Positions 3,858 through 55,053 of a DNA stretch of 59,902 nucleotides are shown here, piece by piece. Source of the stretch: a virus. The DNA lies in IMG/VR virus record IMGVR_UViG_3300025323_000513, positions 1 through 59,902 of that record. The stretch is one strand, 5' to 3'. The notes under the pieces are model-generated. The model was not told the DNA's origin. It did no database searches and was given only the letters and a program-made list of their open reading frames with translations. Position 1 is the first letter of the stretch. Every line of letters begins with the position of its first letter. The translations under genes were made by a program, and so were the position numbers.

Positions 3858-5213
3858 TTATGCTCTTATGCCTCCCAGGTTGATCTGGTTTTTAATAATG
3901 CGGGCTAGCTCATTGCCGAATTCCTCAGCTACTTCCGTTGTTGTGTAAAAATGACCGTTGAGGTTCACGGTTAAGCCTCCACCTTGACCGAGCTTGCTTA
4001 AAGGAATGATGGCTTCGGGACCAGCTTCACCAACGAGGCCAAGAGTGGGACCGGTAACAATGCCTCCATCAGCAAACTTCGATACAACACTTTTTACGGC
4101 ATTCACCGCCCCCTTTATGGGAGCACTTACGGCTGAGACCACAGAGTTGTAGGCGCTCTGAATAGAAGCTATGGCCCCTTTGATCTTCTCTATGCCTGCA
4201 TTGAAGAGGTCGACGATACCACCCCAGATTGTGGTAAAGAGATCTTTTATGCCATTCCATGCGTCGATGAATACTGCCTTGATGTTTTCCCATTGTGTTT
4301 TCCAGAGGGTGTAGAAGAAGATGATGACCGCGCCTATGGCTGCGATTGCCGCGATGATGAGACCCAAGGGACCCAAGAATGCTAAAGCAGCGGCGGCAGT
4401 TACAATAAATCCAGCCAGAAGGAGTCCTGTAAGGAGACTTCCCACAACGATTAAGAGAGTTTGACTATTCTCAAGAAACTTATTGATCCCGCCTTGGGCA
4501 TGGATCCAGTTCTGAATTCCTTTGGTAACCATTTCGATTGCAGGTGCAAAGAGACTTCCCAATGACTCAGCTCCCTCAGTCCCTAGTTGCTTTGTAATAT
4601 CAAGCTGACCTTTGAGTGTTTCAGAATACGCCGCAGCCTGACCATGAACAGTCTTCATGATGGCTGCAAGAATCGTCTCCTTTGAGGCGTGATCATCCAC
4701 TTCAATACCGAATTGCTTCAAAAGACGAGCATTTCCCTGAAAGGCAAGAATCAGAGCCTGGGTTGATTCCTCAAGTCCGATACCTTTGTAACGTGCCAGA
4801 TCCATAGCTGCCGTGAATGCCTGAAATGCAAAGGGACCGTCATTCGTTGCCTGAAGAAGTCGTGCAATTGAGAGGGCAGCTTCTTCATTATCAAAACCAA
4901 ACTTACTTAAGGCTTCATCCGCAACAGCAAGTATCTGTTCTCGAAGAGCTTGAAGATTTGGAGGTAGAGTTTTAAGAATTGCATCAAAACGAGTCATCTG
5001 CACTTCAGCTTCAGCAAAGGCACCAATGGCACTTTTCAAGATTGCACCTGCACCGATGGTTTGAAGCACACCAGCCAAAGCACCAACTTTGTCACCGGCA
5101 AAGCCAGACTGCCCGCCAAGGTCTGACAGGCTGTTACTCATACTTCGGATTGCAGTACTTGCTTCATCCCGAAGTTGAACCAATATTTGTAGTTTGCTTA
5201 TTGACTCTGCCAT
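3858..5213 (-). CDS. Tail tape measure protein
   Basis: A 451-aa protein with a helical Ala/Gln-rich N-terminal half, a strongly hydrophobic central block (about residues 255-310), repeated amphipathic WxxIxxxF segments, and the common tape-measure C-terminal signature FADGGIVTGPTLGLVGEAGPE. It sets tail length and is thought to be ejected during DNA entry. 451 aa is short for this family, so the tail should be short for a siphovirus. The start overlaps the end of the frameshifted tail chaperone extension by 16 nt, the classic arrangement. Confidence 0.88.
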   Translation of the reverse strand: MAESISKLQILVQLRDEASTAIRSMSNSLSDLGGQSGFAGDKVGALAGVLQTIGAGAILKSAIGAFAEAEVQMTRFDAILKTLPPNLQALREQILAVADEALSKFGFDNEEAALSIARLLQATNDGPFAFQAFTAAMDLARYKGIGLEESTQALILAFQGNARLLKQFGIEVDDHASKETILAAIMKTVHGQAAAYSETLKGQLDITKQLGTEGAESLGSLFAPAIEMVTKGIQNWIHAQGGINKFLENSQTLLIVVGSLLTGLLLAGFIVTAAAALAFLGPLGLIIAAIAAIGAVIIFFYTLWKTQWENIKAVFIDAWNGIKDLFTTIWGGIVDLFNAGIEKIKGAIASIQSAYNSVVSAVSAPIKGAVNAVKSVVSKFADGGIVTGPTLGLVGEAGPEAIIPLSKLGQGGGLTVNLNGHFYTTTEVAEEFGNELARIIKNQINLGGIRA

Positions 5214-5748
5214 GATGATTTATTCTTTTTCTTTATCTCTGCACTTTCCGCCTTCAACATTTCGATTATCGTGTCTATGAAGGTCGTGGGCTGACTTTGG
5301 TATTCCTCAAACGTCCACTTCATCTCCCTGCAAATCATTGCCGCTACCATTTCATCTGTGAGAGAGGCTTTGAGCCCTGCGAAGTACCTCTCCCACGAAT
5401 ACCCTACTTCGCCGACTGAAAATTTCCCTTTGTGACTTTGTTCAATTCCACAACCACGAAGTCGTACTCGGAAGGCGATGCTTGCTCGAGCCTGTCAGAA
5501 ATATTCTCCGGATTGCCGTCATATGACACGATGAGCTGTTCAAAGGTTCGCTTCTCAGCCTTGAGCATGATCGAAGCGTCGACATCTTTCATGATGCTTT
5601 CACCCTCACTGGCGATGTCATTGGGATCAATCTTGATCCCTTCAAGAAAGGCACTCTTGATGGCATTCCTTTCCTTGGCATTCATGAAGGACTTGATAAC
5701 GAGGTCTTTTCCGAGTGGTGTTATGAGTTTTATTGTTTCTCTTTCCAT
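5198..5748 (-). CDS. Tail assembly chaperone, -1 frameshift (GT-type) product
   Basis: Two frames make this product. The zero frame (5404-5748, 114 aa) is the G-like protein ending GNFQSAK. At AAAGGGA (minus strand of 5425-5431) a -1 slip continues into an open frame (KGKFSVGEVGYSWERY...) that runs without stops to TAA at 5198-5200, giving about 183 aa. The extension lacks its own start and ends inside the tape measure start region. This is the conserved G/GT organisation of long-tailed phages, in which both forms chaperone the tape measure during tail assembly. No other gene accounts for 5214-5403. Confidence 0.85.
5404..5748 (-). CDS. Tail assembly chaperone, short (G-type) form
   Basis: A 114-aa product of normal termination at 5404. 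It begins MERETIKLITPLGKD, is acidic to neutral and helical, and lies directly between the major tail protein and the tape measure. The position, the size and the downstream open -1 frame identify it as the zero-frame tail assembly chaperone. Sequence similarity to named families is weak by eye, so the call rests mainly on organisation. Confidence 0.82.
   Translation of the reverse strand: MERETIKLITPLGKDLVIKSFMNAKERNAIKSAFLEGIKIDPNDIASEGESIMKDVDASIMLKAEKRTFEQLIVSYDGNPENISDRLEQASPSEYDFVVVELNKVTKGNFQSAK
5419..5431 (-). promoter_or_regulatory. Programmed -1 frameshift slippery site
   Basis: The minus strand reads AAAGGGAAATTTT. In the zero frame of the chaperone gene this gives A-AAG-GGA followed by A-AAT-TTT, two overlapping perfect X-XXY-YYZ heptamers. 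Slipping by -1 on either enters the long open extension frame. Lambda G/GT uses the related GGGAAAG. Confidence 0.85.
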
Positions 5749-5766: not shown

Positions 5767-6756
5767 TTAATATGATGCCACTGCATTTGTTGCTAAGACT
5801 GAAATCATCAAGGTGTCACTTATACTGTAGTGAGCCTTGAATGAAAGTGTCTGACGGACTAGGTCATTGACCTTCACTGGCCGAGTGATTTCCTTGAAGA
5901 TCACTTTTGCAAGATCAATGCGGATCTGGGGATTCGCAGCACTTCCGATTGTGACATCGGTGTTCTTAAGATCGAGTCTCATTGCCTTTGCAGTTGTGGC
6001 AAGAGCTGCGGTCTTGTAGTCCGACTCGTTTTGCCAGAGAGCTTCGAGAGTTCCTTCAATTGAAAACTGCTTGTTGAGGAAATCCGATGGAGTTGAGCTT
6101 CCGAGAACGTCATCATCCTCAATATTCTGATCAATCTTTAGTGTGAGTGACTTGATGTTCATGGCTGAAGTGGCACCAAGACCGGCATATGTAGATGCGA
6201 GCTTGAAGGTGAGATGCTGTGGTAGGAATCTGTTCTCGGTTGTAGCTGAAGGAGTGAGTGTTGCGGTCGCTCCCTTCTTTGCTTTAAGTCCGAGAGTGTA
6301 ATCAAGAAACTTATTAAGTTCATAACTAATCTCAAGCGATGATACTGCTCCGTTTCCATGCTTGTAATCCTGTGCTCCGAGTGGATCATCAATGAAAAGC
6401 GAAAGTGCCTGGTGCTGAGAGCTTTGAGCTACCGTTATGGTGTGATCTTTAATCGTTGCATCGGAATCTGCATTATCTCCAGTTGAAAGCGAGCCAAGAA
6501 TAGAGTAGAGAATGAGAGGAAAATGCTTGTCAGCAATCGGGGCTTTGACCGTTCCTTCAGCCCATTCCTTTGCTTTGCTCTGCCCAACCGCATCCTCAAT
6601 TACTCCTCTCGACTGATCGTCGGTAACGAGTGAAAACTTTTCATTGATATCAAGTTCTGAAAATGGAATCCAGTAAGTAGCCGCAGACTCGGGCGTACCA
6701 CGTACCGTTTCCTTTGCAATTCCGAACTGTATTAATCTTCCTATTCCTTTTGACAT
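5767..6756 (-). CDS. Major tail tube protein
   Basis: A 329-aa protein placed just before the tail assembly chaperone in transcription order, as expected for a siphovirus major tail protein. The N-terminus (IQFGIAKETVRGTPESAATYWIPFSEL) resembles the start of phage tail tube proteins. The rest alternates beta-strands with SL-D-I-Q-type segments, including LTLKIDQNIEDDDVLGS. It would polymerise around the tape measure. It is longer than minimal tube proteins, so a decorative domain may be present. Confidence 0.8.
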   Translation of the reverse strand: MSKGIGRLIQFGIAKETVRGTPESAATYWIPFSELDINEKFSLVTDDQSRGVIEDAVGQSKAKEWAEGTVKAPIADKHFPLILYSILGSLSTGDNADSDATIKDHTITVAQSSQHQALSLFIDDPLGAQDYKHGNGAVSSLEISYELNKFLDYTLGLKAKKGATATLTPSATTENRFLPQHLTFKLASTYAGLGATSAMNIKSLTLKIDQNIEDDDVLGSSTPSDFLNKQFSIEGTLEALWQNESDYKTAALATTAKAMRLDLKNTDVTIGSAANPQIRIDLAKVIFKEITRPVKVNDLVRQTLSFKAHYSISDTLMISVLATNAVASY

Positions 6757-11623: not shown

Positions 11624-13819
11624 TTACCCCTCGATACTTATCTCCTCCGGTCTTGTGTAGCACCTGCAACTCACATGTAAGGGCGGTGATCCCACGTCGC
11701 TGTATGAAATATCGAGCTTCGAGCCATCTGAGCCGATGTGGGTATCTCCTTTATCATAAAAATTGTCATCAATGCCGATCACTTTTCCGTTCATGTTGTC
11801 GCACCATGGGCAGACCATCTCATCGGCCGCGGTATACCACTTGATCGTCTTCACTACTCCCGTTTGCTTCCAGGCTTCCTTGGTAGAGTCATTGGCAATT
11901 CGGAATGTTTCTGTTCGAGCAACTTGAGCAGCACGGACTTCGTCGCTAAAGGCATAAATATTTGAGATTTTGCTTGTAAGTTCTGGTAGTGAAGCACCTT
12001 CAGCAAGGCCCTCCTCGATTCCATCCTTCAAAAGTCCGAGTGTCGTATCGTTGTAACTTTCTGCAAGAAGTTTCATTGCACGTTCAAGGGCAAGGCGTAC
12101 TTCGGAGGTGAGTCTGAATCCGCTTGAGCCAAGGAGTTGCATTGCTTCAGCTCCTTCGGTTGTGTAGAGGTCGGTCAGTATTGGATTTGAGAGATCAATC
12201 ATCGCTCCGACCCATGCTTCACGATTAAAAATATCCTCTACTGCAATCTTCCAGCCCTTCTTGTCAAAGAATCGGTCAAGGTTTGCAAGAACTACAGCTT
12301 TCTGGTCATTGTTGAATTTCTTTATTCCTTCGACCATGAGGTTTTCATATCGAGTAACTCGAAGGACAAAGCCTTTGTACAAGACTTCGTATTCACTATG
12401 GGAAAGGCTTAATAAACTAAATTGTGCTTTTACCTTCACATCCTCAAACTGCTTTTTGCTTGCATCAATAGAGTCGGCCACTCGCTTTGCGATTTCCTCT
12501 GACATCACTTTTCTAGCTTTTGTATTCTTCGCACCTCGTGTTGAAGGTTTCTTGTCAGCCGTGCTTGTCTTTCTGCCAGAGCGATTGACTGACTTTGGTT
12601 TAGGCTTGCCTAGAGCAATCTTCGAGAAGTCAGTCATGACATTTTCCCCGTTATCAATCCCATCGAGTCCGAAGTATTCTTCACGCGCTTCGTTAACACT
12701 CATTACCGGCTGTCCGGCAAGAGCTGCTTTCATTTCTTCAGTCTTTTGGAGCCTGTCTTCTGGGACCGGATCTACGAAATCGAGATACAAATTGTCGCCA
12801 TATCGTGGTACAAGAAATTCATTCAATTGCTGGACGATCATTTCCATCTTTGGCTTTATCGTTCGAGCTGCGAAGACATAGTTTGAGGTTTCTGCGGTAG
12901 CACGATTGGTTTCTGATTCTGATCCTCCGAGAACAGTTTTTGGCACACGGAACCCTGCAAGGATTTTATCTCGCATGACCTGTTGAAGATTGGCGAAGTC
13001 CATATCCTTAGGATTGCTGGATGCTTCGTCATACTTCACGCCCTTAGGAAGTACTGCGACTCGATATGCATTGCCTGCACCTTTGTAGAGATTCTCAAAT
13101 GATGCGCGGAGTACTTTCATCTGCGCGTCAGTGATTGCATTGTCAGAGCTCAAAAGTCCACCGAGTCTTGCACCATTTTTGAAGTAGTTGAGGTTAACTT
13201 CGGAAGCAAAATTGTCAGAATCTATCCAATCAAGTATCGCCTGGACTGTGCCAATGCCTTGATATGGGTCATTTGGATCCGGATATTTTAGGTGAAGAAT
13301 TTGTGCCGGTTTGTATGTAACTGTTTTTCCATCAATGGAATAGCTGTAGCCCTTAATGAATTCAGGGAGAGGTGCAGGAACCGGATTCGTGTACTTAGGA
13401 TTCAAAAGAAATATTGCCTTTGGCTTATCGGTATCTTTTTCAACACCATCAAGAAGCCAGTATGAATTTCCGGCAAGTTCAAGATGCGAGCCTGTGAGAT
13501 ATCGAAGTTCATATCCGGTTTGAAAAGGATTCACTCCGTCTAAAAGATCGAGAAGCTCATGGTCAAATATTTCCTCATGCACTCCGTCTTTATTTACCTG
13601 AAACAAACGGAATGATATCTTTGCTAATTCCTCTGATATCGCACGGATGGCGGCATACGTCCATGCATTATATGTACCCATCGCTTTATCGATGGACACT
13701 TTTCTTGAACGGCTCCATAGGGTAAACGGATCATCATTTGATAGACCCGAAGCAAGCGGGAGATTTAATCCTTTGCGCGTGAGACCTATGAGATTTAATG
13801 TTTTGTCTAAAATATTCAC
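11624..13819 (-). CDS. Portal protein fused to MuF-like minor head protein
   Basis: At 731 aa this is much longer than an HK97 portal (about 400-500). Residues 1 to about 410 are portal-like (TYNAWTYAAIRAISEELAKI, LTGSHLELAGNSYWLLDG, FRVPKTVLGG). A basic linker (about 420-455) follows. The C-terminal part has the SPP1 gp7/MuF signature: QVARTETFRIAND, a CPWCDNMNGKVIG zinc-like motif and HVSCRC near the end. The portal ring should nucleate the prohead and thread DNA, and the MuF domain is usually a separate minor head protein ejected with DNA. No frameshift separates the two here, so this is a genuine fusion. Confidence 0.9.
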   Translation of the reverse strand: MNILDKTLNLIGLTRKGLNLPLASGLSNDDPFTLWSRSRKVSIDKAMGTYNAWTYAAIRAISEELAKISFRLFQVNKDGVHEEIFDHELLDLLDGVNPFQTGYELRYLTGSHLELAGNSYWLLDGVEKDTDKPKAIFLLNPKYTNPVPAPLPEFIKGYSYSIDGKTVTYKPAQILHLKYPDPNDPYQGIGTVQAILDWIDSDNFASEVNLNYFKNGARLGGLLSSDNAITDAQMKVLRASFENLYKGAGNAYRVAVLPKGVKYDEASSNPKDMDFANLQQVMRDKILAGFRVPKTVLGGSESETNRATAETSNYVFAARTIKPKMEMIVQQLNEFLVPRYGDNLYLDFVDPVPEDRLQKTEEMKAALAGQPVMSVNEAREEYFGLDGIDNGENVMTDFSKIALGKPKPKSVNRSGRKTSTADKKPSTRGAKNTKARKVMSEEIAKRVADSIDASKKQFEDVKVKAQFSLLSLSHSEYEVLYKGFVLRVTRYENLMVEGIKKFNNDQKAVVLANLDRFFDKKGWKIAVEDIFNREAWVGAMIDLSNPILTDLYTTEGAEAMQLLGSSGFRLTSEVRLALERAMKLLAESYNDTTLGLLKDGIEEGLAEGASLPELTSKISNIYAFSDEVRAAQVARTETFRIANDSTKEAWKQTGVVKTIKWYTAADEMVCPWCDNMNGKVIGIDDNFYDKGDTHIGSDGSKLDISYSDVGSPPLHVSCRCYTRPEEISIEG

Positions 13820-16160: not shown

Positions 16161-17288
16161 CTATTTTGGCAAAACCCTTGTGAATACTAGCTTTTTTACG
16201 ATCGCCTGAACCACGTTTACGGTCACTGCATTCCCCAAACACTTGTATCTTTGGGTATCACTGGCACCTAGAGTCCAATCATCAGGAAATCCCTGTAATC
16301 GTTCACATTCTTTTGGTGTAAGGCGCCGAATCTTCTGTAGTCCTTTGACGGCATACAGTCCTGTCTTAGCTCCCAGACCTCCTGCTTGGCTTGCGAGAGT
16401 GGTGGCTATGCCCTTAGCATCATAGATTCGGCTCCCTTGGGGAAAGTTCCGACTAAGCTGTTTTCCATCATCAAGCCATTTCTTGTTTTTCTCGCTCATG
16501 ACTGCTCCTATGTACTTTAGGTCTTTATGTGACGGTCTTTTACTAACATAAGTTCCGTTCGAGTCTGCGGTAACACGTGTCGTGATGGTTGGTAGGATAA
16601 TATCCTCGCTTGCGTTTTGGGCGAGAGGAAATACTTCCGGTCTGGGTGTGCATCTAAGATGTCCGACAATGAAGACTCGCTCTCGGTTCTGAGGTACTCC
16701 GAAATTCTTGCTGTTAAGCACCTGCCATTGGAGGTCATACCCAAGACCATCCAGTGTGCGGAGGATAATACCGAAGGTGCGCCCTTTTTCGTGAGAGAGA
16801 AGCCCCTTAACATTCTCAAGGAGTAGAAGCCGTGGTCTTTTGGCAGCGATAATGCGAGCAATCTCAAAGAACAATGTCCCTCGAGTGTCTTCAAAGCCCT
16901 TTCTCTTGCCGGCAATAGAGAAAGATTGGCAAGGAAAACCTCCAATGAGTAAGTCGAAATCGGGCAGATTTCTTGATTTGATTTTTCTGATGTCTCCATA
17001 ATTTGTGTGCTTGAAATATTTTTCATAGATTTGTATTGCGTGCTTGTCGATCTCAGAGTAACCCACGCAAGTAAGCGATTCTTGTCGTAAGCCGTCGCAG
17101 TGATGGTGTTTGCAAGGTTGTCCCCTCTCGGGGTGAGCTTTTTCAGGCTTCTTGTATCCTTTACCACTCCGAGTCTTCGTAATCGCTTTGCCTCCTCCGT
17201 TCTTCTTTCTGTTAGCTGTTTCCACATATGCGTTGTGTATGCCGAGTTCGAAGCCTCCAATTCCTGAGAAGAGACTGAGATACCTCAT
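16161..17288 (-). CDS. C5-cytosine DNA methyltransferase, phage orphan type
   Basis: A 375-aa protein with the ordered C5-MTase motifs: I (LSLFSGIGGFELG, residues 4-16), IV with catalytic Cys (GGFPCQSFSIAGKRKGFEDTRG), VI (ENVKGLL), VIII (QNRERVFIVG), target recognition region, IX (RRLTPKECERLQGFPDDW) and X (LGNAVTVNVV). It methylates cytosine C5 using SAM. No nuclease is encoded beside it, so self-protection of phage DNA against host restriction is likely. The paralogue in the other phage (55436-56659) carries an extra 30 or so residues in the recognition region, so the two may target different sites. Confidence 0.93.
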   Translation of the reverse strand: MRYLSLFSGIGGFELGIHNAYVETANRKKNGGGKAITKTRSGKGYKKPEKAHPERGQPCKHHHCDGLRQESLTCVGYSEIDKHAIQIYEKYFKHTNYGDIRKIKSRNLPDFDLLIGGFPCQSFSIAGKRKGFEDTRGTLFFEIARIIAAKRPRLLLLENVKGLLSHEKGRTFGIILRTLDGLGYDLQWQVLNSKNFGVPQNRERVFIVGHLRCTPRPEVFPLAQNASEDIILPTITTRVTADSNGTYVSKRPSHKDLKYIGAVMSEKNKKWLDDGKQLSRNFPQGSRIYDAKGIATTLASQAGGLGAKTGLYAVKGLQKIRRLTPKECERLQGFPDDWTLGASDTQRYKCLGNAVTVNVVQAIVKKLVFTRVLPK

Positions 17289-18595
17289 TGTTTTATTTTA
17301 TTAATCCTCTCCCAACGATTGCGAATGACATCACAGAACTTGGGATCAAGCTCAATCATGTACGCCCTTCGGCCGACCTTTTCCGCCGCAGCCATGGTGC
17401 TGCCGGACCCTCCGAAGGGATCAAGAACAATGTCATTTCTTTTTGTAGAATTGCGAAGTGCTCTCATTGCAAGCCAATCAGGTTTTTCAGTCGGATGGAG
17501 ATAGTGTGCAACTGCTTTCCTCGGCATCTCCCAGACATCAAACTCATTGTCACCATAGAATTTGTGAGTACCATTTTTCCAACCATATATGATTCCTTTT
17601 GCAGTTTTTGGATCAGGCTTCTTTGCACGTGCTATCCACTCGTGTTTGTAGCGGTAGTCATTCCAACCCATGCTCGGAACATTCTTAACCCAGATAATTA
17701 CCCCCGAATGCTGGAAGCCATGCTTGAGCATGCTTTCAAGGAATTGCGCGTATGAGCTCCAACCAGAGCAAGTGTAAAATGATGCGCCTTCTTTTGTGTT
17801 AATGAATAATGCATAGAAAGCTGAATCAATGAATGCTCGGAATTGATTGTCATCCATGTTGTCATTCTTGATGGATTCATTCCCTTCTTCTTTGAGTTTA
17901 TTTCCTCGGCTCTTATAGTTCACATTGTATGGGGGATCTGTGAAGACCATGTCGGCTTTCTCATCTCCTAGAAGTTTTTTGTAAGTCTCGGGATCAGTGG
18001 AGTCACCACAGATGAGTCTATGGGACCCGAGCTCATAGATTTCTCCAAGCTTCGATCGAGGTTCTTTGTCTACTTCATCTCCCTCTCCTTCATCTTCTTC
18101 CTCATCGTCGAGCGTCTGATCAAGAATCCGGCTGATTTCATCATCCCTGAAACCTGAAGCGGGAATGGATGGCGATTCCTTAAGCTCAAGAATAATTTCA
18201 AAGAGTTTTTTCTCATCCCATTTTCCCTTGATCTTGTTGAGGGCAAGGTTGAGGAGCTTCTCTTCGGGAAAGTGCAAATCCACTAGATTGGCTGGAATGA
18301 GGGCTACTCCGTCCTTGGTTTCAATGCCTTTTATGGCTTCACCTTGGGCTACAAGCTCCTCTACGGCGGTAGTTCGCTGATGACCCCCTACCAGTACCCA
18401 TTTTCGGTCACCGCATTGGTCACAGGTGTGAGTATTCACAACTACCGATTCCACAAAGCCGAAAGTCTTGATACTTGTTTTAAGCGCGGACATTTCATTC
18501 TCCAGCATAATACGGGGATTGTACTCAGCCCGCCTTAACTCAGTGATTTTAATTTTTGTCGACTCCATATTTTTCAGCGAAGTTAATTCTTGCAT
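17285..18595 (-). CDS. ParB-like domain fused to N4/N6 DNA methyltransferase
   Basis: A 436-aa protein; M10 (18568) is an alternative start. The first 150 residues form a ParB/sulfiredoxin-like module (YNPR, VESVVVN, WVLVGGHQRTTAVEEL). An acidic linker follows (DDEEEDEGEGDEVDKE, about 168-183). The methyltransferase part has TDPPYNV (motif IV) before LDPFGGSGST (motif I), the beta-class order. The stop overlaps the start of the C5-MTase (4 nt). A homologue occupies the same module in the second phage at 53313-54641. Such fusions are common in phages, and probably act in DNA modification. Confidence 0.92.
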   Translation of the reverse strand: MQELTSLKNMESTKIKITELRRAEYNPRIMLENEMSALKTSIKTFGFVESVVVNTHTCDQCGDRKWVLVGGHQRTTAVEELVAQGEAIKGIETKDGVALIPANLVDLHFPEEKLLNLALNKIKGKWDEKKLFEIILELKESPSIPASGFRDDEISRILDQTLDDEEEDEGEGDEVDKEPRSKLGEIYELGSHRLICGDSTDPETYKKLLGDEKADMVFTDPPYNVNYKSRGNKLKEEGNESIKNDNMDDNQFRAFIDSAFYALFINTKEGASFYTCSGWSSYAQFLESMLKHGFQHSGVIIWVKNVPSMGWNDYRYKHEWIARAKKPDPKTAKGIIYGWKNGTHKFYGDNEFDVWEMPRKAVAHYLHPTEKPDWLAMRALRNSTKRNDIVLDPFGGSGSTMAAAEKVGRRAYMIELDPKFCDVIRNRWERINKIKQ

Positions 18596-20034: not shown

Positions 20035-21180
20035 TTATTTTGCTTTTGCTTTGACCTCTGCTTTCTTGGTTGGCTTTTCGACCTTTACTGGCTCACCACT
20101 CATCTCTGCGCTTTGGAGTGCGGTGTGTTTTCTTACAAACTCCTGAACCCTTGCAAATCCTGCTTCCAATGCTTCAGGTCGCAATGATTCGACAACTGTC
20201 CAGCTCATCGTGTTGAAGGCGAACTGAATGGCATCAATCTTTAGTTTCTTCTGGTCTGCGGACTGTCCCGGCCATACAGAGACAAGATAATTCTCGATCT
20301 CCTCAAGCCATCGTTTCTTCATTTGTTTCCATTCATACTTTTCCTCCTCGGTTCGGAAGAGCGTTCCTGCATCTCGTTCAGCCGTAGTCTCAAGTTTTTC
20401 AGGAGCTTCTAGCATCACTTCGATTGCAGGTGCAAAATCCTTGAAATCAGGATTTTCGAAGACCTTGCCATCGATTACAGTTGAACGATCCTTGATGACA
20501 ATTCCTTGTCTCGTCACCTTCTTGATTGATCCACCTTCCATCTCCTGCATGCGTTCCATGAGGACAAGGAGATCGGGCTCGTATGCTGTTTCTCCTTCAA
20601 CCTTCATCTTTATTCCCGACTTATATATTTCTCTTTTTCCTGTTTCTTTATTGATCTCGTTCTCATATTCATATCCGGCACGGCCAGTCATGATGATGTG
20701 GTAGGGATCGCGTACGAAGACATCGGAAAACTCTGTCTTCCATGTCGGCTTGATTACGCCCCAGTCTTGGAATTCGAGACGTGTTCTGCGAACCTTCTCA
20801 GCGTATGACTTGAGGAAGTTCTCCCAGACATGGCTGATTGAATCGATGATGAGAACGTCACTCGCGCCTTCTCTCATGCGGGTCATTGTCTCTTTGAGGT
20901 CGGCAAGGGATTTTGATTCGCGGACCAGTACCTCAATCCCTTCTGCTACAAACATGGATTTGAGGAACTTGGCCGCTTTTTCAGTATCGAAGATGATGAC
21001 TGGTTTCTTCGACCCAACTCTCTTATGTAGACCTATGGCAACTTTGGCTGCCGTGTACGTCTTACCCGTTCCAGCGAAGCCTTCAAAGGCTGCCTTGAAA
21101 TAGGGTTTGGTGTTGCCGATCAGCGCGAAGAAGTTATCTTGCGCCTTTGGCTTACTTGTTGTTATATTTTGTGTGTTCAT
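20035..21180 (-). CDS. RecA/Sak4-like P-loop ATPase
   Basis: A 381-aa protein with Walker A GFAGTGKTYT at 34-43 and a Walker B strand VLIIDSISHVWENF ending at D113, followed by a RecA-like core and a charged C-terminus ending in a Lys/Ala-rich tail. The fold is that of the phage AAA_24/Sak4 group, single-strand annealing or RecA-like proteins. In this early operon it probably promotes recombination or loads replication proteins. The homologue at 57735-58925 has the same length and layout. Confidence 0.8.
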   Translation of the reverse strand: MNTQNITTSKPKAQDNFFALIGNTKPYFKAAFEGFAGTGKTYTAAKVAIGLHKRVGSKKPVIIFDTEKAAKFLKSMFVAEGIEVLVRESKSLADLKETMTRMREGASDVLIIDSISHVWENFLKSYAEKVRRTRLEFQDWGVIKPTWKTEFSDVFVRDPYHIIMTGRAGYEYENEINKETGKREIYKSGIKMKVEGETAYEPDLLVLMERMQEMEGGSIKKVTRQGIVIKDRSTVIDGKVFENPDFKDFAPAIEVMLEAPEKLETTAERDAGTLFRTEEEKYEWKQMKKRWLEEIENYLVSVWPGQSADQKKLKIDAIQFAFNTMSWTVVESLRPEALEAGFARVQEFVRKHTALQSAEMSGEPVKVEKPTKKAEVKAKAK

Positions 21181-22857: not shown

Positions 22858-22867
22858 GTAGGAATTA
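22858..22867 (-). promoter_or_regulatory. TAATTCCTAC element, variant copy
   Basis: The minus strand reads GTATAATTCCTAC, 37 nt before the Xis-like start and over the integrase stop codon. It shares TAATTCCTAC with four 13-bp copies in front of virion and lysis genes of element 2. A TATAAT hexamer is embedded. Confidence 0.5.
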
Positions 22868-24004
22868 TACTTTTGACCACTTTCCGCCTCCTGGCGTGCG
22901 TACGACAGTCGCTCTTTTGGGAGCATTTATAAACTGATGATGCGATGGGACGTTTCCTTTTTGCATGTACTCGATAAAGTTTTCGAGGACTTCTTGTGCG
23001 TTGTCCAGACCATCCATGCTAGCAAGGCTTTTAAGATTTTTATTGAGTCTAGCCTTATCTTGTTTCGGATTACCTGGGTTATTCTTTTGGAATACCTGCC
23101 ATCTCTCCTTCAGGTCATTCCCCCACATCATGGTGTAGAACTGTGAGCTCTCAAGGTTTGAGTGTCCGAGGATGTTAGTAACGTCTGCACTTGCTCCACC
23201 CTCTTTGATAATCTTGCGACCTCCATAATGTCGAGCGGAGTGTGCATTGAAGATGGTCGGCAAACCAGCACGATTTGAGGTCATACGGAATACTTCACAA
23301 ACTCCACGTCCGGTCATTCGTTTACCGCGCACATCGTATGCCGCACATTTTCTAATTGAGGTAAATACTGCACCCTGATCTTCGAATGTCATCTTGTCTT
23401 GAATCTGGGATTTTTTCTTCAACCATGCTTTTAGATATTTTCCTGTTTGTGCTGTCCAGAATATTTCTCGGATAGGTCGGCGACCTCTCGACTTCTCTGT
23501 TTTAATAATTGCAGAGCCCGAGCAGTCCTTATTGAACACAAGGTCTTCTTCATTGAGCGAGACAATTTCGCCGGCGCGTGCCCACGAATCCCATACTATG
23601 TGTATCAGAGCAAGGTTTCGAATATTGTTTGGATTCGTATCGCGCGGGACCGCTTTCACCATCTTCTTAAAGTCTGCCTCATTTGCCACTCGAGGAATAT
23701 TGAATTCCTTTTTAGGTAACGGGATGAGTGATTCGTTGACGCATCGATATCCCTTTAGATTGTAGTATTCAAAAAACTTTCTCAATGCAAGAGCAACAAT
23801 CGTTATGCCATTTCTTTTCCACCCTAAACGCTCCATTTCTTTCATGTAATGGAGGATGTGATGTATTTGTACTTGCTCAATATCGGGGTCACCGAATGTT
23901 AAGCAAAAAATACGGAGGACCGCATCGTAGCGGATCACCGTTTGGCCAGAGACTTTAAAGCCTCTCCAATTTTTAAATTCTTCTATTGCTTCGCTAAATT
24001 TCAT
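22865..24004 (-). CDS. int: Tyrosine recombinase (phage integrase)
   Basis: ATG at 24004 is preferred to a TTG at 24043, which lies in a hairpin loop. The product is 379 aa. Residues 1-90 form a SAM-like core-binding domain. The catalytic set is complete: R143 in ARAGE, K168 or K171, H255 and R258 in AHSARHYGG, H281 in LGHSNLESS, and nucleophile Y290 in QFY. It is the only integrase in the window and sits next to the GAPDH tail, so it is the likely enzyme for insertion at gap. Element 1 must rely on this one or on one beyond the left edge. Confidence 0.95.
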   Translation of the reverse strand: MKFSEAIEEFKNWRGFKVSGQTVIRYDAVLRIFCLTFGDPDIEQVQIHHILHYMKEMERLGWKRNGITIVALALRKFFEYYNLKGYRCVNESLIPLPKKEFNIPRVANEADFKKMVKAVPRDTNPNNIRNLALIHIVWDSWARAGEIVSLNEEDLVFNKDCSGSAIIKTEKSRGRRPIREIFWTAQTGKYLKAWLKKKSQIQDKMTFEDQGAVFTSIRKCAAYDVRGKRMTGRGVCEVFRMTSNRAGLPTIFNAHSARHYGGRKIIKEGGASADVTNILGHSNLESSQFYTMMWGNDLKERWQVFQKNNPGNPKQDKARLNKNLKSLASMDGLDNAQEVLENFIEYMQKGNVPSHHQFINAPKRATVVRTPGGGKWSKV

Positions 24005-24018
24005 ATTATGGCCAACCA

Positions 24019-24054
24019 AAAAGTCCACCCAGATGCTAATCAAAGTGGACTTTT
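24019..24054 (-). repeat. Inverted repeat at the integrase start
   Basis: Arms AAAAGTCCAC (24019-24028) and GTGGACTTTT (24045-24054) are perfectly complementary, 14 nt upstream of the ATG. The loop holds AGATGCTAA on the plus strand, the same 9-mer as in the structured RNA copies but in opposite orientation. It is a possible operator or translation-control hairpin. Confidence 0.6.
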
Positions 24055-27166: not shown

Positions 27167-28201
27167 CTAATCAGACGTTTTTCCAGTTACAGAAACAACA
27201 GGAGCACCCTTGCTTGCAACCACAATTTCTTCTTTTATGAGTAGGTTTACCCAGTCTTCAGTATAAATATAATCCTTATGGACCATATCGTACTGACAAT
27301 ACTTTGATGTGGTTTTTGTCTTATTCTGGTCGTTTGTGGCAGGTCTTACCGCATATTTTCTCCACATGTCGGTATGCCAGTTTGAGCTTTTCTCGATACC
27401 AGTCCTTTCAAGTATTGTCTTCAGAATATCTTTTGGTTTGTATTTGCCTTGATTGGCTACTGGGACCTGCTTTTCTTTGATCAGTGCCTGAATCTTTTCA
27501 AAGTTTTCTTTTTGATTCTTGTCTGCAAGGTCAAAGTTTACAAATTCAACAGCTAGGTCTGATGAGTTTCTGTGATTTCCAATTTTAGGTATAAGGAATA
27601 CCTTGAATGAAAACTCTTGCGAGTCTCGAACCACGCGCGATATAGAACTTCTGTGATTCTTAATGAAATCAATCACATCCTGTCCATCCTGCGTAACCGG
27701 AATCTTTCTTTTAAAGTTACTGATCTGTAGAGGGATATTCAAATGGTCAACAATAGAATGCTTATTGGAAAATTCCTTGATCAAAAGGCTCTCATAGTTA
27801 ATCAAAAAGGCTTGGCACTCTCCGAGGACATGACTATCTATTTCCGGAATAAATCTATGCTCGATTTTATTTCTGAGTTTCGCCATAAACTCAATGTTTC
27901 GGAAGATAGGATTTGTCTGATGCTGAAAATATTGCTCGGCACACTTCACCAGTTCCCAAGCCTTATAGTCTCCATCGACTGTTTCGTAACGAATCGAATT
28001 TTTTCTTTTGTAGTAATACTTGACCCCCCTTCTTTCAAAAACTGCATGAAAAAAAGCCGTGTACGCTATACACATTAAGGTTATGTATGCGAAGGATTTA
28101 AAGGCTGTTCTCGGCTTGTTGTAAACTTCGACGGCAAGTAGCGAGGAGTCTTTAGATTTTTCTAGTAGTAGAGCTACTTTTTTGGGTAATCGGCCAGCCA
28201 T
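27167..28201 (-). CDS. DUF3644 protein with HEPN-type RN-x3-H motif
   Basis: A 344-aa protein. The N-terminal 140 residues match DUF3644 (LLLEKSKDSSLLAVEVYNKPRTAFKSFAYI..., DGDYKAWEL, NIEFMAKLRNKIEHRF). R110, N111 and H115 in LRNKIEHRF fit the HEPN RNase motif. The C-terminal part (WRKYAVRP, DWVNLLIKEE) resembles a wHTH-like end. It is the last gene of the restriction operon, 12 bp after the nuclease. HEPN proteins in such operons often act as RNA-cleaving suicide effectors; that role is inferred here. Confidence 0.82.
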   Translation of the reverse strand: MAGRLPKKVALLLEKSKDSSLLAVEVYNKPRTAFKSFAYITLMCIAYTAFFHAVFERRGVKYYYKRKNSIRYETVDGDYKAWELVKCAEQYFQHQTNPIFRNIEFMAKLRNKIEHRFIPEIDSHVLGECQAFLINYESLLIKEFSNKHSIVDHLNIPLQISNFKRKIPVTQDGQDVIDFIKNHRSSISRVVRDSQEFSFKVFLIPKIGNHRNSSDLAVEFVNFDLADKNQKENFEKIQALIKEKQVPVANQGKYKPKDILKTILERTGIEKSSNWHTDMWRKYAVRPATNDQNKTKTTSKYCQYDMVHKDYIYTEDWVNLLIKEEIVVASKGAPVVSVTGKTSD

Positions 28202-28213
28202 AGATTTTCATGA

Positions 28214-29572
28214 TTATTTCTTTATCTTTACAGTCACAAGGTATTTGATTGGCATGATGGTAACCCCTAGAATCTCATTTGCGAATGGATTCGGCATTCG
28301 ATAGATGAGTGGAGTTGGTGAAGTGTAATCAAAAACGATGTAGAGATGATAATTTGGATTCTTCTGGGCAATGAGGACTTCGTTCTCAGAGATATAGAAT
28401 CTGAAAGTGAGTCCTGGCTTGCTCTTTACTGCCTTCACTTCGATATGCTTTTCTGATCCGTCAGCATTGTAAGAAAGCACGTCGTAGCCGAGCATGTCGC
28501 TCTCCAAAGAAACCTGCTTTATTTGAGACACTAAATCAGGGCGAACCTTTGCTAGCTCCTCTGTCTCGTGTTTAATTACGATCTTTTCTGCAAAGTCGCC
28601 GGCTACCCTATTCGCACCATCTCGCAATTCGAAGTCGATTTTGTGGGCAACAACATGTGCCCTCTTTCTTGGGACCGTACTGGTATCGACATCTTCATCA
28701 ATTTCGATATTTACAGTCTGAGGATGTACGCTGTCGATATCAGGCAAAAGAGAAGGCTCTCCAACTAGCTTATTGATTATTTCCTCCTGTTCTTCGGTGG
28801 ATCTCTTTTCAAGATTTTCTATCACACGCAAGTAGTTTGGGTTGAGAGTGTAGATTTGCCATCCATTGTTTGAAGTAAGGTATGGGAAGTATCCCTCATC
28901 GCTGAAGTCTCGGACCGAGAAACTCTCGAGGACTACCTCGATGTCTTTCTTTGAAAGGTTGGAAACAATTTTGTTGTCCGCATCCTTTTGGATATATGAG
29001 GAAATAAGAAGCATATCGAAGAATCGTTTTACGTTGTCAGCAAAATCTCCTATTCCGAGCTCCTGGCTCTTTTCCTCGAGTGCTTTGAGGTAAACATCTT
29101 TATTTGGAGATACTCTAAATTCTTCTATCAGCTTTATTGCCGTGGGTATTTCATCTTTGCTATTGATCCAACAAACGAAGAGTCGGTACTCGTCAAAGGA
29201 AATGTGGTCAAGCGTGTATAAGATATGCAACAATACCTCCATTGGAGCAATCTTGATTGAAAGATTGTCATTGAGTTTTGCACAATCGAGATAAACTTTC
29301 ATGACCTGCTCGTCGAGTATCTTTTGCTTGTATGGAGAATGCAGAAAAGTCTCGCCGGCATTCGAGATTTGCAAATTGTCGCCTCCGAGGTTAATCACGA
29401 GACCGAGATATCTCAAGGTAATACTGTTTCGTGTAGTGAGCTGATTAAAATCAGTCGTCAAATCAGCGTGAATTTTATTCACAGCATCACTGGTATATTC
29501 CTTTTGCTTTGCTTTCTTCCAAAAGTTTCCAGTGCCTTTGTTTTCTAAAAAATGTTTGTATTCGTTCTCCAT
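28214..29572 (-). CDS. Restriction endonuclease with DUF3883-like C-terminal nuclease domain
   Basis: A 452-aa protein. The first 280 residues are helical and could bind DNA. The C-terminal 130 residues contain MLGYDVLSYNADGSEKHIEVKAVKSK, with the D-(x)n-E-V-K pattern of a PD-(D/E)XK fold, in the DUF3883/NO VEIN-type arrangement, then YLYIVFDY-like strands. It starts 2 bp after the C5 methyltransferase ends, so the two form a linked pair. Likely the cutting subunit of this restriction system. Confidence 0.8.
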   Translation of the reverse strand: MENEYKHFLENKGTGNFWKKAKQKEYTSDAVNKIHADLTTDFNQLTTRNSITLRYLGLVINLGGDNLQISNAGETFLHSPYKQKILDEQVMKVYLDCAKLNDNLSIKIAPMEVLLHILYTLDHISFDEYRLFVCWINSKDEIPTAIKLIEEFRVSPNKDVYLKALEEKSQELGIGDFADNVKRFFDMLLISSYIQKDADNKIVSNLSKKDIEVVLESFSVRDFSDEGYFPYLTSNNGWQIYTLNPNYLRVIENLEKRSTEEQEEIINKLVGEPSLLPDIDSVHPQTVNIEIDEDVDTSTVPRKRAHVVAHKIDFELRDGANRVAGDFAEKIVIKHETEELAKVRPDLVSQIKQVSLESDMLGYDVLSYNADGSEKHIEVKAVKSKPGLTFRFYISENEVLIAQKNPNYHLYIVFDYTSPTPLIYRMPNPFANEILGVTIMPIKYLVTVKIKK

Positions 29573-29574
29573 AA

Positions 29575-30687
29575 CTATTTATTCAAAATTTGCGCAATTC
29601 TCGAAGCAATTGCTTTAGCTAATAATGGTGGGACCGCATTCCCGATCTGGATGCCTACCGAGCTCTTGTTGCCATAGAATACGAAGTCATCGTCAAATGA
29701 CTGGATTCTGGCTGCCTCACGGGGAGTGAGGGCTCTGTGGGAGACTGGATGGGTGATTCTACCTACTGAAGGTGTATCAAATCTGGTCGTAATTGTATAG
29801 GCCGGCTTATCTTTCTCCAGTCGGCCGAAAGCTCCACTATGCACGGATTTGGTCTGTAGCTCCTTTGGAATGTGGATTCTGCCTTGGCCAGGCTTTATCG
29901 TCTTCAAGAGGTCTATAATTCGCTTATCGTGCTTTGTGGCTTGGTGATTGTAGAGTTTCTTCGCCTTGCCCTTTCTATCCTTGGCATACGGCGCAATAGG
30001 GGCATTTCCTGCGTATTCTGATTCAAATTCCCCCGCCCCCGCATCGATTTTAGGCAAATCGAGAATCGTTTCGCCGATTGTCACATAAGGCTTTGATGCC
30101 TCTGGACCATGAGTTTTCTTTGGAAAGAACTCTTTAGGGTCGATACCGAGTCGATTACCGATGAATACAGCTCTTTTTCTAAGCTGTGGCACACCATATT
30201 CCGCTGCAAGCAATACTCTGACTTCTGTCTCGTATCCGATCTGCTTGAATAGGCGGATTATTTCATCCTTTACTGCGCCATCATGCATGTTGAGCATAGC
30301 GGCGACATTTTCCATCACGAATACTTTCGGCTTTATGTCTTTGACGATTCGATGGAACTCTTTGAAAAGTTCGTTTCTAGGATCGTTCATAAAAGCGCCA
30401 TCATTTCTGATTCTTCGCCCTGCCATACTAAAGCCTTGGCATGGTGGACCTCCCACAATCACGTCTATTTCTTCGCCATTATATAAATCCTTAGACTTTA
30501 TTTTTGTGATGTCTTCGACAATCATCTTAGTACCAGGATGGTTTTTGGCGTAAGTGTTCGCAATGTCAGGTTTGTATTCGTTTGCAGCAACTACCTCAAA
30601 GCCGGCTTTTTTGAAACCGGTTGAGATACCTCCGACACCTGCGAACAGGTCTATGATTTTTAGTTTTTTATTTTTGTTGCCAGCCAT
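29575..30687 (-). CDS. C5-cytosine DNA methyltransferase of the restriction operon
   Basis: Start taken at ATG 30687, because the longer frame overlaps the upstream gene much further. The product is about 370 aa. Motifs in order: I (IIDLFAGVGGISTGF), IV with catalytic Cys (GGPPCQGFSMAGRR), VI (ENVAAM), VIII (PQLRKRAVFIG), IX (LTPREAARIQSFDDDF) and X (IQIGNAVPPLLAKA). It is Dcm-like and clearly distinct from the two phage orphan enzymes. It sits directly before the nuclease gene, so it probably protects the host from it. Confidence 0.94.
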   Translation of the reverse strand: MAGNKNKKLKIIDLFAGVGGISTGFKKAGFEVVAANEYKPDIANTYAKNHPGTKMIVEDITKIKSKDLYNGEEIDVIVGGPPCQGFSMAGRRIRNDGAFMNDPRNELFKEFHRIVKDIKPKVFVMENVAAMLNMHDGAVKDEIIRLFKQIGYETEVRVLLAAEYGVPQLRKRAVFIGNRLGIDPKEFFPKKTHGPEASKPYVTIGETILDLPKIDAGAGEFESEYAGNAPIAPYAKDRKGKAKKLYNHQATKHDKRIIDLLKTIKPGQGRIHIPKELQTKSVHSGAFGRLEKDKPAYTITTRFDTPSVGRITHPVSHRALTPREAARIQSFDDDFVFYGNKSSVGIQIGNAVPPLLAKAIASRIAQILNK

Positions 30688-32263
30688 GTTCGTTTTTTTC
30701 TTTAACGAAGTTGTAGGCAAGGTGTTTTTTGAGTACATCTTCAATATTCATAACTTGCCCATCCTTATCCGCATACAAATGTTTTTCAACAATGAAAGGG
30801 ATCAGTCTTTCGTATAATGCGTCCGAGCTAATTGAGCCCTTAGCTTGGTTAATCCAAGTTCCGACCTTTTTGATAATTTCTTTTTCGTTATCCACTATGC
30901 TGCGGACGACAGGCTTTTCAGCCTTGATACTTGTGTCTTTTAGGAAGTTGTAGACGAAGTCACCTCTAAGGGTATTGTTTCTGTTAATTCCCTGCGTTCC
31001 GGATGCTACCGCTTGCTCCTGATAAACAACGTTTACGAGGTGGAATCCTGCATCTGTAACCGCATCCATGACTGCTTTCCAAATATTCAGATTTCTATTG
31101 TGGAAAGTGAATGATAGATAGCTCTTATTTTTCAATACTCGGAAAAGTTCTGCGTACACTTTCTTCATTCGAGAAGAGTAATCTTCGTATTTCTTGTTTC
31201 GATACGGGTCATAGATAATCTCGTTCTCGTAGTTCACTACGTTCTTGAGCCATGCATTCCAGAACATACTTAGACCGAAGTATGCAATGCTATCGCCATA
31301 CGGCGGATCGGTGAAAATATAATTTACTGAAGAGCTCTCGACTGCTTTTAAATTTGTTGCATCAATGTTTAATATTTTTGCATCCTTTGGGTTAAAGATA
31401 CTCACTAGCTCACTCTTACCTTTATGTATTTTTTTGAACCGTTCTCTGAAACTGTTGAGTGGATTCCTCTCGGTGTGAATCTTAGGAGCCCAGAGTTTAC
31501 TAATAACCCATCCTGATTTTCCATTCACTGTCTCTGGATCGCCTGGAATCATTTTTGAAACGTTCGGCAACATCGACGTAAAGCAAAGAAGAATTAATTT
31601 CTTTGTATTCTGATTCTTGACCTCATCAATATCTTTTATGATTGATCCGAGCACGGCAAGAGAACGCTCAGTAAAAAATTGATTCAAGTGGCTCTTACCA
31701 TTTCTCTTAACGAATTTTAATATCTCATCCTTCGGGTAAAATAATTTATGCGCCTTATCTAGTTTCAAAAAAGTCTCTGTTGCACTCTTAAGTACCTTTT
31801 GGTCATAGGCATCTGTATTCTTTGTAAATTTACCGCAAGACGGGCATGTACCTTTTACTTTTGAAAAAACTTCATGATCCCAGATTGAATTTTCAAATGG
31901 AACTTCTGTTTTGCAGTGCGGACACTTTGTGAGATACAGCTCAATAAACTTTTTATAGTTCTTATCGTAGATATCTTCGAACTCAACCTGGAAATCATTC
32001 AAATCAACATCGCTGATAGTGTTTTGCGCTATAAAACACGCCATCGGATTTAAATCGATACCGATTGCCTTTCTATTATTTTTGAGCGATTCAATCACAA
32101 CCACTCCACTACCCATAAATGGATCAAGAACAACGTCGCCCGGCTTTGAAAAATTGAGGATGTAATCTCGCACAACGTTATGAGGTTTTCTTCCCCAATA
32201 CTTGTGCATCATGTAGTGTGATGGATGTGTCTCTGCTACTATATTTTTGTTGATTTTCTTCAT
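30668..32263 (-). CDS. N4/N6 DNA methyltransferase with zinc-binding insert
   Basis: Start at ATG 32263, 69 bp after the helicase; the longer frame runs into a hairpin. The product is about 531 aa. Near the N-terminus HPSHYMMHKYWGRKPHNVV and LDPFMGSGVVVIESL form the SAM motif I. TDPPYGDSIAYF (motif IV) follows some 280 residues later, an alpha-like order. A CPHC...CPSC zinc insert lies between. It would methylate adenine N6 or cytosine N4. Two methyltransferases of different chemistry in one operon is notable. Confidence 0.9.
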   Translation of the reverse strand: MKKINKNIVAETHPSHYMMHKYWGRKPHNVVRDYILNFSKPGDVVLDPFMGSGVVVIESLKNNRKAIGIDLNPMACFIAQNTISDVDLNDFQVEFEDIYDKNYKKFIELYLTKCPHCKTEVPFENSIWDHEVFSKVKGTCPSCGKFTKNTDAYDQKVLKSATETFLKLDKAHKLFYPKDEILKFVKRNGKSHLNQFFTERSLAVLGSIIKDIDEVKNQNTKKLILLCFTSMLPNVSKMIPGDPETVNGKSGWVISKLWAPKIHTERNPLNSFRERFKKIHKGKSELVSIFNPKDAKILNIDATNLKAVESSSVNYIFTDPPYGDSIAYFGLSMFWNAWLKNVVNYENEIIYDPYRNKKYEDYSSRMKKVYAELFRVLKNKSYLSFTFHNRNLNIWKAVMDAVTDAGFHLVNVVYQEQAVASGTQGINRNNTLRGDFVYNFLKDTSIKAEKPVVRSIVDNEKEIIKKVGTWINQAKGSISSDALYERLIPFIVEKHLYADKDGQVMNIEDVLKKHLAYNFVKEKNEHGWQQK

Positions 32264-32277
32264 AGTTATTAAAACGG

Positions 32278-32306
32278 GGTATGTACCGTCACACACGACA
32301 CATACC
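32278..32306 (-). repeat. Inverted repeat upstream of the N4/N6 methyltransferase
   Basis: GGTATGT (32278-32284) and ACATACC (32300-32306) lie 14 bp before the methyltransferase start. A possible operator or mRNA hairpin setting expression of the methyltransferase relative to the helicase. Confidence 0.4.
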
Positions 32307-32331
32307 AAGAAACCCATCGAATAGCAATGAC

Positions 32332-52839: not shown

Positions 52840-53329
52840 TTCGGCTAAACATTAATTCGTAATCTTCTATCTCTTTTTGCGTGTATACGACCACGCCGAT
52901 TCTTTCTGTCTTATTGACCTCGAACGTTTGAGGGACTTTTCCATCCACTCGGTCAATGACCATTCCCGCTGCTTTAAGGTTGCCGTCTGCTGCCATCGTT
53001 ATCAGTTTTTTTGCGATCACTTTGTCGTAGGTGACCTTCTGTCCATCCTTGGTTACCCCGCCGACCTCTCGGACCGCATCTCTGAATAAAGTCGAGAAAT
53101 GCCGAGCACCCAGAGGCTTGCCCGGATTACCTGGAAGGAACTGTCCTGTGGCTGGGTCTTTACCCGTATTTTGCCCGTATTTACGGGTGTCAGACGAGTC
53201 TGAAACAGGCTCGGAAACCCCCTTATTTGCCTCCACAGGTGCAGTAGGTTGATCAGCCGTCTGAACGGCTTTAGGAGCCTCCAAAAGGAGCACTTTTTCT
53301 TGTTTGTTTTCATTATTCTTCTGGGTCAT
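52745..53329 (-). CDS. Terminase small subunit candidate with DUF5681-like region
   Basis: A 194-aa protein. The segment RKYGQNTGKDPATGQFLPGNPGKPLGARHFSTLF (about 49-82) matches the DUF5681-type N-terminal patch often found beside terminase genes. The rest is helical (MAADGNLKAAGMVIDRVDG). Position before terL supports the small subunit. Confidence 0.7.
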   Translation of the reverse strand: MTQKNNENKQEKVLLLEAPKAVQTADQPTAPVEANKGVSEPVSDSSDTRKYGQNTGKDPATGQFLPGNPGKPLGARHFSTLFRDAVREVGGVTKDGQKVTYDKVIAKKLITMAADGNLKAAGMVIDRVDGKVPQTFEVNKTERIGVVVYTQKEIEDYELMFSRNDKPKTNSIAQASDNGGSPSTEGATQGGAYE

Positions 53330-54641: not shown

Positions 54642-54642
54642 A

Positions 54643-55053
54643 TTAGTTTTTTTCCATCCAACCCACCATGCTCGACTCGTTGCATGCACCAACTTTGCCG
54701 TCATCGTCGATGTACTCATAGGTGGGTTTGCCTTTTTCTGTTGGCAGGATGCCGATTACAAGACGCTCTATTCCTTTTCTGTTGCGACAGATAGTACCGA
54801 AGGTGTAAGTCATCTTTTGATTTGGATTCTTCTTTTCCCAATGATGGCGGAGTGCTGCGAAGAATTCTCCTTGGACCGTTTCAAGGAAGGCGATAATTGC
54901 TCCCCTGCTGTCTGTTTTGAAAATTGGCAGGAGACTATGTGCGCCGATAATCCAAGCACCGACAAAGTCCGGACGTGCCGTAAGGAATCTTGCCGATAGG
55001 CTTATTGGATTCAGCACGGGTTTTGTTTCTTTTTTTGTGTTCTTTTTTGGCAT
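54643..55053 (-). CDS. Hypothetical protein beside ParB-methyltransferase
   Basis: A 136-aa protein, basic at the N-terminus, with WIIGAHSLLPIFKTDSRGAIIAFLETVQGEFFAALRHHW and a strand-rich end (KPTYEYIDDDG). It has no homologue at the matching place in phage 1. It starts one base from the next gene's ATG. Function unknown. Confidence 0.58.
   Translation of the reverse strand: MPKKNTKKETKPVLNPISLSARFLTARPDFVGAWIIGAHSLLPIFKTDSRGAIIAFLETVQGEFFAALRHHWEKKNPNQKMTYTFGTICRNRKGIERLVIGILPTEKGKPTYEYIDDDGKVGACNESSMVGWMEKN

Follow-up and report, generated by a model that had tools for sequence, protein, structure and literature searches.

A probable lambda-type G/GT frameshift with a covarying downstream stem in a phage lineage tied to Patescibacteria

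The window, meaning the whole stretch of DNA analysed here (59,902 bases, from IMG/VR), very probably carries a lambda-type G/GT programmed −1 ribosomal frameshift. The shift would take place at A-AAU-UUU near the end of the gene for a putative tail assembly chaperone and would be stimulated by a downstream RNA stem, with two further slippery heptamers just upstream that are probably incidental neighbours. The original prediction was that a −1 frameshift yields a long and a short tail chaperone. Comparison with relatives strongly supports it: it shows, besides the gene order, the −1 relation between the two frames in all distinct loci, coding selection on the downstream frame, a slip position at a fixed place and a covarying stem. 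As judged from these comparisons, programmed frameshifting is probably essential to the way in which this phage lineage, tied to uncultured Patescibacteria, makes its tail chaperone.

Gene layout and heptamers in the window

The features of the locus are collected in Table 1. The heptamers, G, T and the tape-measure gene are all encoded on the minus strand, and G stands between the tail tube gene and the tape-measure gene, as identified with Pfam and PHROG, which is the order expected for a G/GT pair. The −1 frame had been described beforehand as open for about 75 codons and ending in the start region of the tape measure, and this agrees with the translation: 73 codons follow the slip, and the stop of T falls past the tape-measure ATG (5213-5211), overlapping the start of that gene. 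The tape-measure protein is merely 451 residues long, which would predict a short tail.

Table 1. Features of the predicted frameshift locus; positions are those of the window.
Feature	Position	Strand	Basis or remark
Analysed window, IMG/VR virus record	59,902 bases		Metagenome assembly
Tail tube protein, gene preceding G	5767..6756	-	Pfam Phage_tube_2 (PF18906), E 1.1e-20
G, short form of the putative tail assembly chaperone, 114 aa	5404..5748	-	ORF; profile detection in relatives
Heptamer 1, A-AAG-GGA	5425..5431	-	12 nt ahead of first stem pair
Heptamer 2, G-GGA-AAT	5422..5428	-	9 nt ahead of first stem pair
Heptamer 3, A-AAT-TTT, conserved slip site	5419..5425	-	6 nt ahead of first base pair formed in the window
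T region, −1 frame, 73 codons after the slip, TAA 5200-5198	5198..5419	-	Translation; 7-sequence alignment; dN/dS
Stem 5' arm, GCGAAGTA	5405..5412	-	Covers two bases of the G stop TAG (5406-5404)
Stem 3' arm, TACTTCGC	5379..5386	-	Pairs with GCGAAGTA
Tape measure protein, 451 aa	3858..5213	-	PHROG tape-measure matches, best E 1.4e-23

Near the end of G, the sequence AAAGGGAAATTTT (5431-5419, minus strand; codons ACA AAG GGA AAT TTT) consists of three overlapping X-XXY-YYZ heptamers, all in one phase, which is that of G. Two of them, A-AAG-GGA and A-AAT-TTT, had been reported as a tandem in-frame pair and are indeed present; the count was incomplete, as G-GGA-AAT between them had been overlooked. 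By codon reading, slippage at G-GGA-AAT or at A-AAT-TTT would give an identical protein (...TKGNF-SVGEV...), and slippage at A-AAG-GGA would give one of equal length that differs in one residue (...TKGKF-SVGEV...). The predicted junction peptides are ...GNFSVGEVGYSWER for heptamer 2 or 3 and ...GKFSVGEVGYSWER for heptamer 1.

The frequency of such heptamers was investigated in 60 window genes, which are ORFs of our own selection, with 200 synonymous codon shuffles as the expectation. In-phase heptamers numbered 77, against 114.9 (sd 11.9) expected. Runs of at least two were found 4 times (8.5 expected) and runs of at least three once (0.73 expected). Because about 0.73 such runs are expected by chance, the triple run is by itself unremarkable; what stands out is that it lies where G and T overlap and that its last heptamer is conserved.

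The G and T frames and their proteins in relatives

An alignment search with the tail tube recovered 67 viral loci and four loci in bacterial genome records, namely those of Candidatus Taylorbacteria (95% identity), Candidatus Nomurabacteria, Candidatus Uhrbacteria and an uncultured bacterium. A search with T recovered 74 loci, many of them on contigs already found with the tail tube. Profile searches identified both G and T in 137 of the 145 loci; five were without a confident G or T, and three more were without a candidate. Counted as distinct were the 91 of these 137 loci that differ within 60 bases on either side of the G stop. Wherever both parts were present, T lay in the −1 frame of G (137 of 137 loci, and 91 of 91 distinct loci). 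An earlier pairing of G and T by ORF length had put 10 of 94 loci outside the −1 frame as a result of wrong G picks, and profile-based detection of G was used instead.

Selection on T was estimated from ten pairs of relatives. Substitutions at codon positions 1, 2 and 3 numbered 74, 40 and 224, respectively, and dN/dS ranged from 0.026 to 0.208 in the eight pairs for which dS could be computed. Since substitutions favour the third codon position and dN/dS is low, T is, by its pattern of change, a real coding region that evolves as coding sequence.

At a limit of E 0.01, the Pfam and PHROG models gave no match to the window's G, the best being ThylakoidFormat at E 0.062, and a search of phage records with this G gave no match. 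The same records searched with the tail tube returned two entries of one Thermoanaerobacterium phage (22%). For the window's T, a weak chaperone match was the only one found (phrog_9001, E 0.068). Among 42 G sequences scanned against Pfam and PHROG, EryCIII-like_N matched one and two PHROGs without function matched one each. Among 31 T sequences, the tail assembly chaperone family phrog_9001 was found in one, with one relative at E 0.002, and phrog_7580, which has no function assigned, was found in three.

Structures were predicted with AlphaFold, using 42 of the 89 listed G sequences and 31 of the 70 listed T sequences as inputs. The G model, built from 42 sequences, reached a mean pLDDT of 79.6. 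Among the best ten structural alignments, the predicted fold of G aligned at rank 1 with YqbN (3klu), which we take to be a prophage protein of the tail assembly chaperone kind (Z 7.6, rmsd 3.0 over 85), and at rank 3 with the HK97 tail assembly chaperone (2ob9; Z 5.5, rmsd 3.3 over 77), but with 7% and 9% identity, respectively. Both Z scores are below 8, the safe level of the tool, under which a match perhaps reflects just a common arrangement. Foldseek against the PDB gave no match below E 0.001 for the G or the T model. In a viral structure library, G had two matches below 0.001, both to uncharacterised phage proteins, and annotated chaperones appeared from E 0.015. The model alignments support, without proving, the identification of G as a tail assembly chaperone.

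Conserved slip position, downstream stem and proposed mechanism

Motifs of the T protein (Gly/Ala/Ser/Asp/Thr-Glu ... Trp-x-x-aromatic-Phe) were used to anchor the distinct loci, by which 72 of the 91 were placed and 19 lacked the motifs. At a fixed place 5 nt ahead of the first possible stem base, the 72 anchored loci carried AAATTTT (27), GGATTTT (15), CCCTACG (8), AAATTTA (5), GGGTTTT (4), AAATTTC (2) or one of 11 heptamers of a single kind each. In five of the eight CCCTACG loci, AAACCCT was present three bases upstream. Two of the 11 singletons (L038 and L127) were mis-anchored by the protein motif, with AAATTTT and GGATTTT a few bases upstream. The window's heptamer at this place is A-AAT-TTT, the sole one of the three at the conserved distance from the stem. 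A perfect in-phase heptamer occurred in 67 of the 91 distinct loci and an imperfect TTTT site in 20 of the 24 others, so that four of the 91 had neither near the start of T. In eight loci (L033, L034, L037, L039, L058, L069, L080 and L081), A-AAT-TTT is directly followed by the G stop TAG, and the stem core is still five bases downstream of the heptamer.

The window's stem comprises 8 bp and begins six bases past A-AAT-TTT; in the T frame, its arms translate to Gly-Glu-Val (5' arm) and Tyr-Phe-Ala (3' arm). In a first set, for which 43 of the 47 loci with a recognised slip site could be anchored, 41 distinct arm pairs showed standard pairs in 342 of 369 cells, compared with a maximum of 319 in 1000 whole-arm swaps and of 234 when the partner was slid by one to three bases. 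In the wider set of 47 distinct arm pairs, 370 of 423 cells paired, compared with maxima of 340 in swaps and 266 when slid. Covariation was measured in a set of 44 sequences (A6), obtained from the 45 of the 72 anchored loci that share the window's arm spacing; L110 was omitted, the window stands for L017 and other loop lengths were excluded. In A6, 38 cells were changed on both sides versus 11.9 in shuffles, and the covariation score was reached by none of 500 shuffles. Two of the five measures were not above shuffles, namely pairs with change on both sides (5 versus 4.3) and further pair types (14 versus 12.7). RNAalifold, given no hint of the stem, predicted six of its pairs, which form its core. 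When mapped on a tree, standard pair types changed 6 times at the second pair, 6 times at the third and 14 times at the seventh, G-U steps included, and because of these counts many of the changes are taken as repeated events.

Folding of individual sequences was also evaluated. The best stem reached p ≤ 0.05 against base shuffles in 37 of the 47 loci with a recognised slip site, a count that omits the nine of 56 distinct loci without one. A short segment of the window folded into the stem at −10.6 kcal/mol, and 5 of 200 shuffles were equally good. For a longer segment of the window, the best fold was a different helix downstream of the stem, one that could instead be part of a candidate pseudoknot, and the folding of longer segments was not clearly better than that of shuffles (z −1.11 and −1.60). 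Complementary arms of ten bases are present at 5396-5387 and 5367-5358, and a similar helix was predicted in the Taylorbacteria locus (L084); pairing of these arms across the stem loop could make up a candidate pseudoknot in the window's closest relatives. The spacer of 5–6 nt between slip site and stem is inside the 5–9 nt usual for −1 signals according to excerpts of two articles (PMC7618472; PMC5009743).

In the proposed mechanism, the majority of ribosomes would translate G and terminate at its TAG, and a minority would be delayed by the stem that starts six bases past A-AAU-UUU. These ribosomes would slip while AAU occupies the P site and UUU the A site, both tRNAs moving back by one base, tRNA-Asn onto AAA and tRNA-Phe onto UUU, and would then read the −1 frame for 73 codons to produce GT. 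G and GT would together aid the assembly of the tail tube around the tape measure protein. Here we infer the occurrence of the shift, its rate, the dominant heptamer with its exact slip codons, and the role in assembly.

Two other explanations of the overlapping frames were considered. T could be a gene of its own, translated from a start within the overlap or through re-initiation once G has been terminated, and an ATG at 5350 within T does open an ORF of 50 amino acids. The invariant residues of T (F, E, Y, W and R-Y-F), however, begin at the slip site and ahead of the first methionine in seven aligned sequences, ATG being the start considered, and the spacing between slip site and stem is fixed across the family; we regard a separate T gene as very improbable. 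A sequencing error or a pseudogene could likewise produce a change of frame, and the record is a metagenome assembly, but the same −1 relation is found in every distinct locus with both parts, on many contigs and in bacterial genome assemblies, and T is under purifying selection. This explanation is the hardest to credit of those considered, and the stem-stimulated frameshift at A-AAU-UUU is preferred to both.

Upstream heptamers, host tRNAs and known systems

The original prediction also held that several heptamers could raise or buffer the ratio of long to short chaperone, and this was not borne out by the relatives. Under such a reading, the overlapping heptamers would be a selected device that gives two or three successive chances to slip and raises or buffers the share of GT. 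The three in-phase heptamers of the window would fit it, as would at least two adjacent heptamers in 16 of the 91 distinct loci (a triple in 2 of 91), some with other sequence (L105, L112, L161). G-GGA-AAT was found in 10 of the 24 distinct first-set loci with the core GGA AAT TTN, where 5.6 would be expected from how often codons of these ORFs have G at the third position; this test ignores kinship, and parsimony gives 4 changes over 30 loci. Against a selected device, the nearest relatives L017, L018, L084 and L019 carry 3, 3, 2 and 1 heptamers, respectively, with the remainder conserved, L017 being a separate contig with G and T 100% identical to the window's. A-AAG-GGA occurred in two of the 24 first-set loci (L017 and L018), and in the wider set, where 30 anchored loci have the GGA-AAT core, A-AAG-GGA was found in two of these and G-GGA-AAT in 10, so that conservation of the extra sites was not observed. 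Upstream sites appear each time a codon with a final G stands in front of the Gly codon GGA, and loci with GAC, GAT, AGC or GGC in that place have neither of them. The window genes, moreover, hold no excess of in-phase heptamers, and only the last heptamer keeps its distance from the stem. A selected device is accordingly rated improbable. Since the two upstream heptamers occur in only 10 of 30 and 2 of 30 loci, and close relatives have three, two or one, they are probably by-products of the Lys-Gly-Asn-Phe codons and no conserved device for setting the ratio, as far as sequence can tell. A mild contribution of G-GGA-AAT is possible, given the excess over expectation in the first set and its presence in a third of the wider one (10 of 30).

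The bacterial genome records were used to identify a likely host. A portal 96% identical to the window's was found in the L084 genome (Candidatus Taylorbacteria) and one with 53% identity in the L085 genome; no portal relative was found in the L086 genome. Taylorbacteria, Nomurabacteria and Uhrbacteria are within the Patescibacteria group in the NCBI taxonomy, and because of the 96%-identical portal in a Candidatus Taylorbacteria genome, the host of the phage is probably in this group. Ten proteins at the ends of the L084 contig were scanned, and one end carried MraW, a penicillin-binding protein and a Mur ligase, which suggests an integrated prophage.

All 40 tRNA places found in the L084 genome were listed, and they include one tRNA-Asn (GTT), one tRNA-Phe (GAA) and two tRNA-Lys (TTT, CTT). 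The A-site codon was taken from the last perfect heptamer ahead of the G stop, a rough rule by which a wrong site may be chosen in some loci; in 67 loci with a perfect heptamer it was TTT (32), TTA (13), CCT (8), AAA (8), TTC (3), AAT (2) or AAG (1). The genes of the window use TTC slightly more than TTT (419 versus 341). Slippage may be favoured by the wobble G-U pair of tRNA-Phe with UUU; a host is known for a minority of the 91 loci. A broader reading is that Patescibacteria phages use a slip code based on tRNA-Phe or tRNA-Leu (UUU or UUA in the A site) and not on lysine codons, as in lambda and dnaX, because two host tRNA-Lys with UUU and CUU anticodons would make AAG in the A site poorly slippery, and that the extra heptamers are a small tunable addition; we consider this reading doubtful. 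According to a passage of PMC5009743, tight pairing on AAG is to be expected where this codon has its own tRNA, as in Thermus. Host loss of ribosomal protein bL9 was considered as a cause of shiftiness and rejected, as Ribosomal_L9_N was present in three of the four host genomes, Taylorbacteria included, and missing in Uhrbacteria.

In phage lambda, the genes follow the order tail tube, G, T, tape measure, and the slip codons are G-GGA-AAG. The window has the same gene order; unlike lambda, its predicted slip codons are A-AAU-UUU, a covarying stem overlaps the G stop codon, and G is unrecognised by Pfam or PHROG models. AAAUUUU, GGGUUUU and GGAUUUU are slip sites of RNA viruses. According to an excerpt of PMC5009743, lambda obtains a long and a short product (gpGT and gpG) from its chaperone gene by −1 frameshifting close to the end of that gene, and a −1 shift near the end of the window's G would likewise give a long and a short chaperone. 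Another excerpt of that article names G_GGU_UUU as a slip site and describes dnaX, which slips on A-AAA-AAG with a Shine-Dalgarno-like stimulator (PMC5009743), whereas the window would slip on A-AAU-UUU. The combination of heptamer, spacer and downstream structure is otherwise as in dnaX-type and RNA-virus −1 signals, for which the excerpts give a 5–9 nt spacer, and the general mechanism is well known from these sources (PMC5009743; PMC7618472). The imperfect sites found here are not new in kind, because PRFect already handles frameshifted phage genes whose slip motifs are imperfect. Our literature search, which was without most subscription journals, found no work on frameshifting in phages of Patescibacteria or the Candidate Phyla Radiation and nothing on overlapping slippery sites; for tandem slippery sites, it returned only unrelated plant-virus work. 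The loci form a large collection of naturally occurring slip sites that share an almost constant spacer and a covarying stem. With this collection, it becomes testable whether overlapping heptamers that lie side by side have additive effects and whether the host tRNA set decides which slip codons evolve.

Outside the frameshift locus, the window contains two portals, one at 11624-13819 and one of the SU10 type (PF23899, E 2.4e-14) at 49088-51106 in the right half, as well as a phage integrase (PF00589) at 22865-24043. From the second portal and the integrase, two phages may lie in tandem in this record. Between the two portals (27167-34791), a cluster that resembles restriction or defence genes comprises DUF3644, NOV_C, an N6/N4 methylase and a ResIII helicase that weakly matches AlwI. 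Each half contains an AAA_24 protein (20035-21180 and 57735-58925) and an N6/N4 methylase (17285-18595 and 53313-54719), as if these duplicates belonged to parallel gene sets of two phages.
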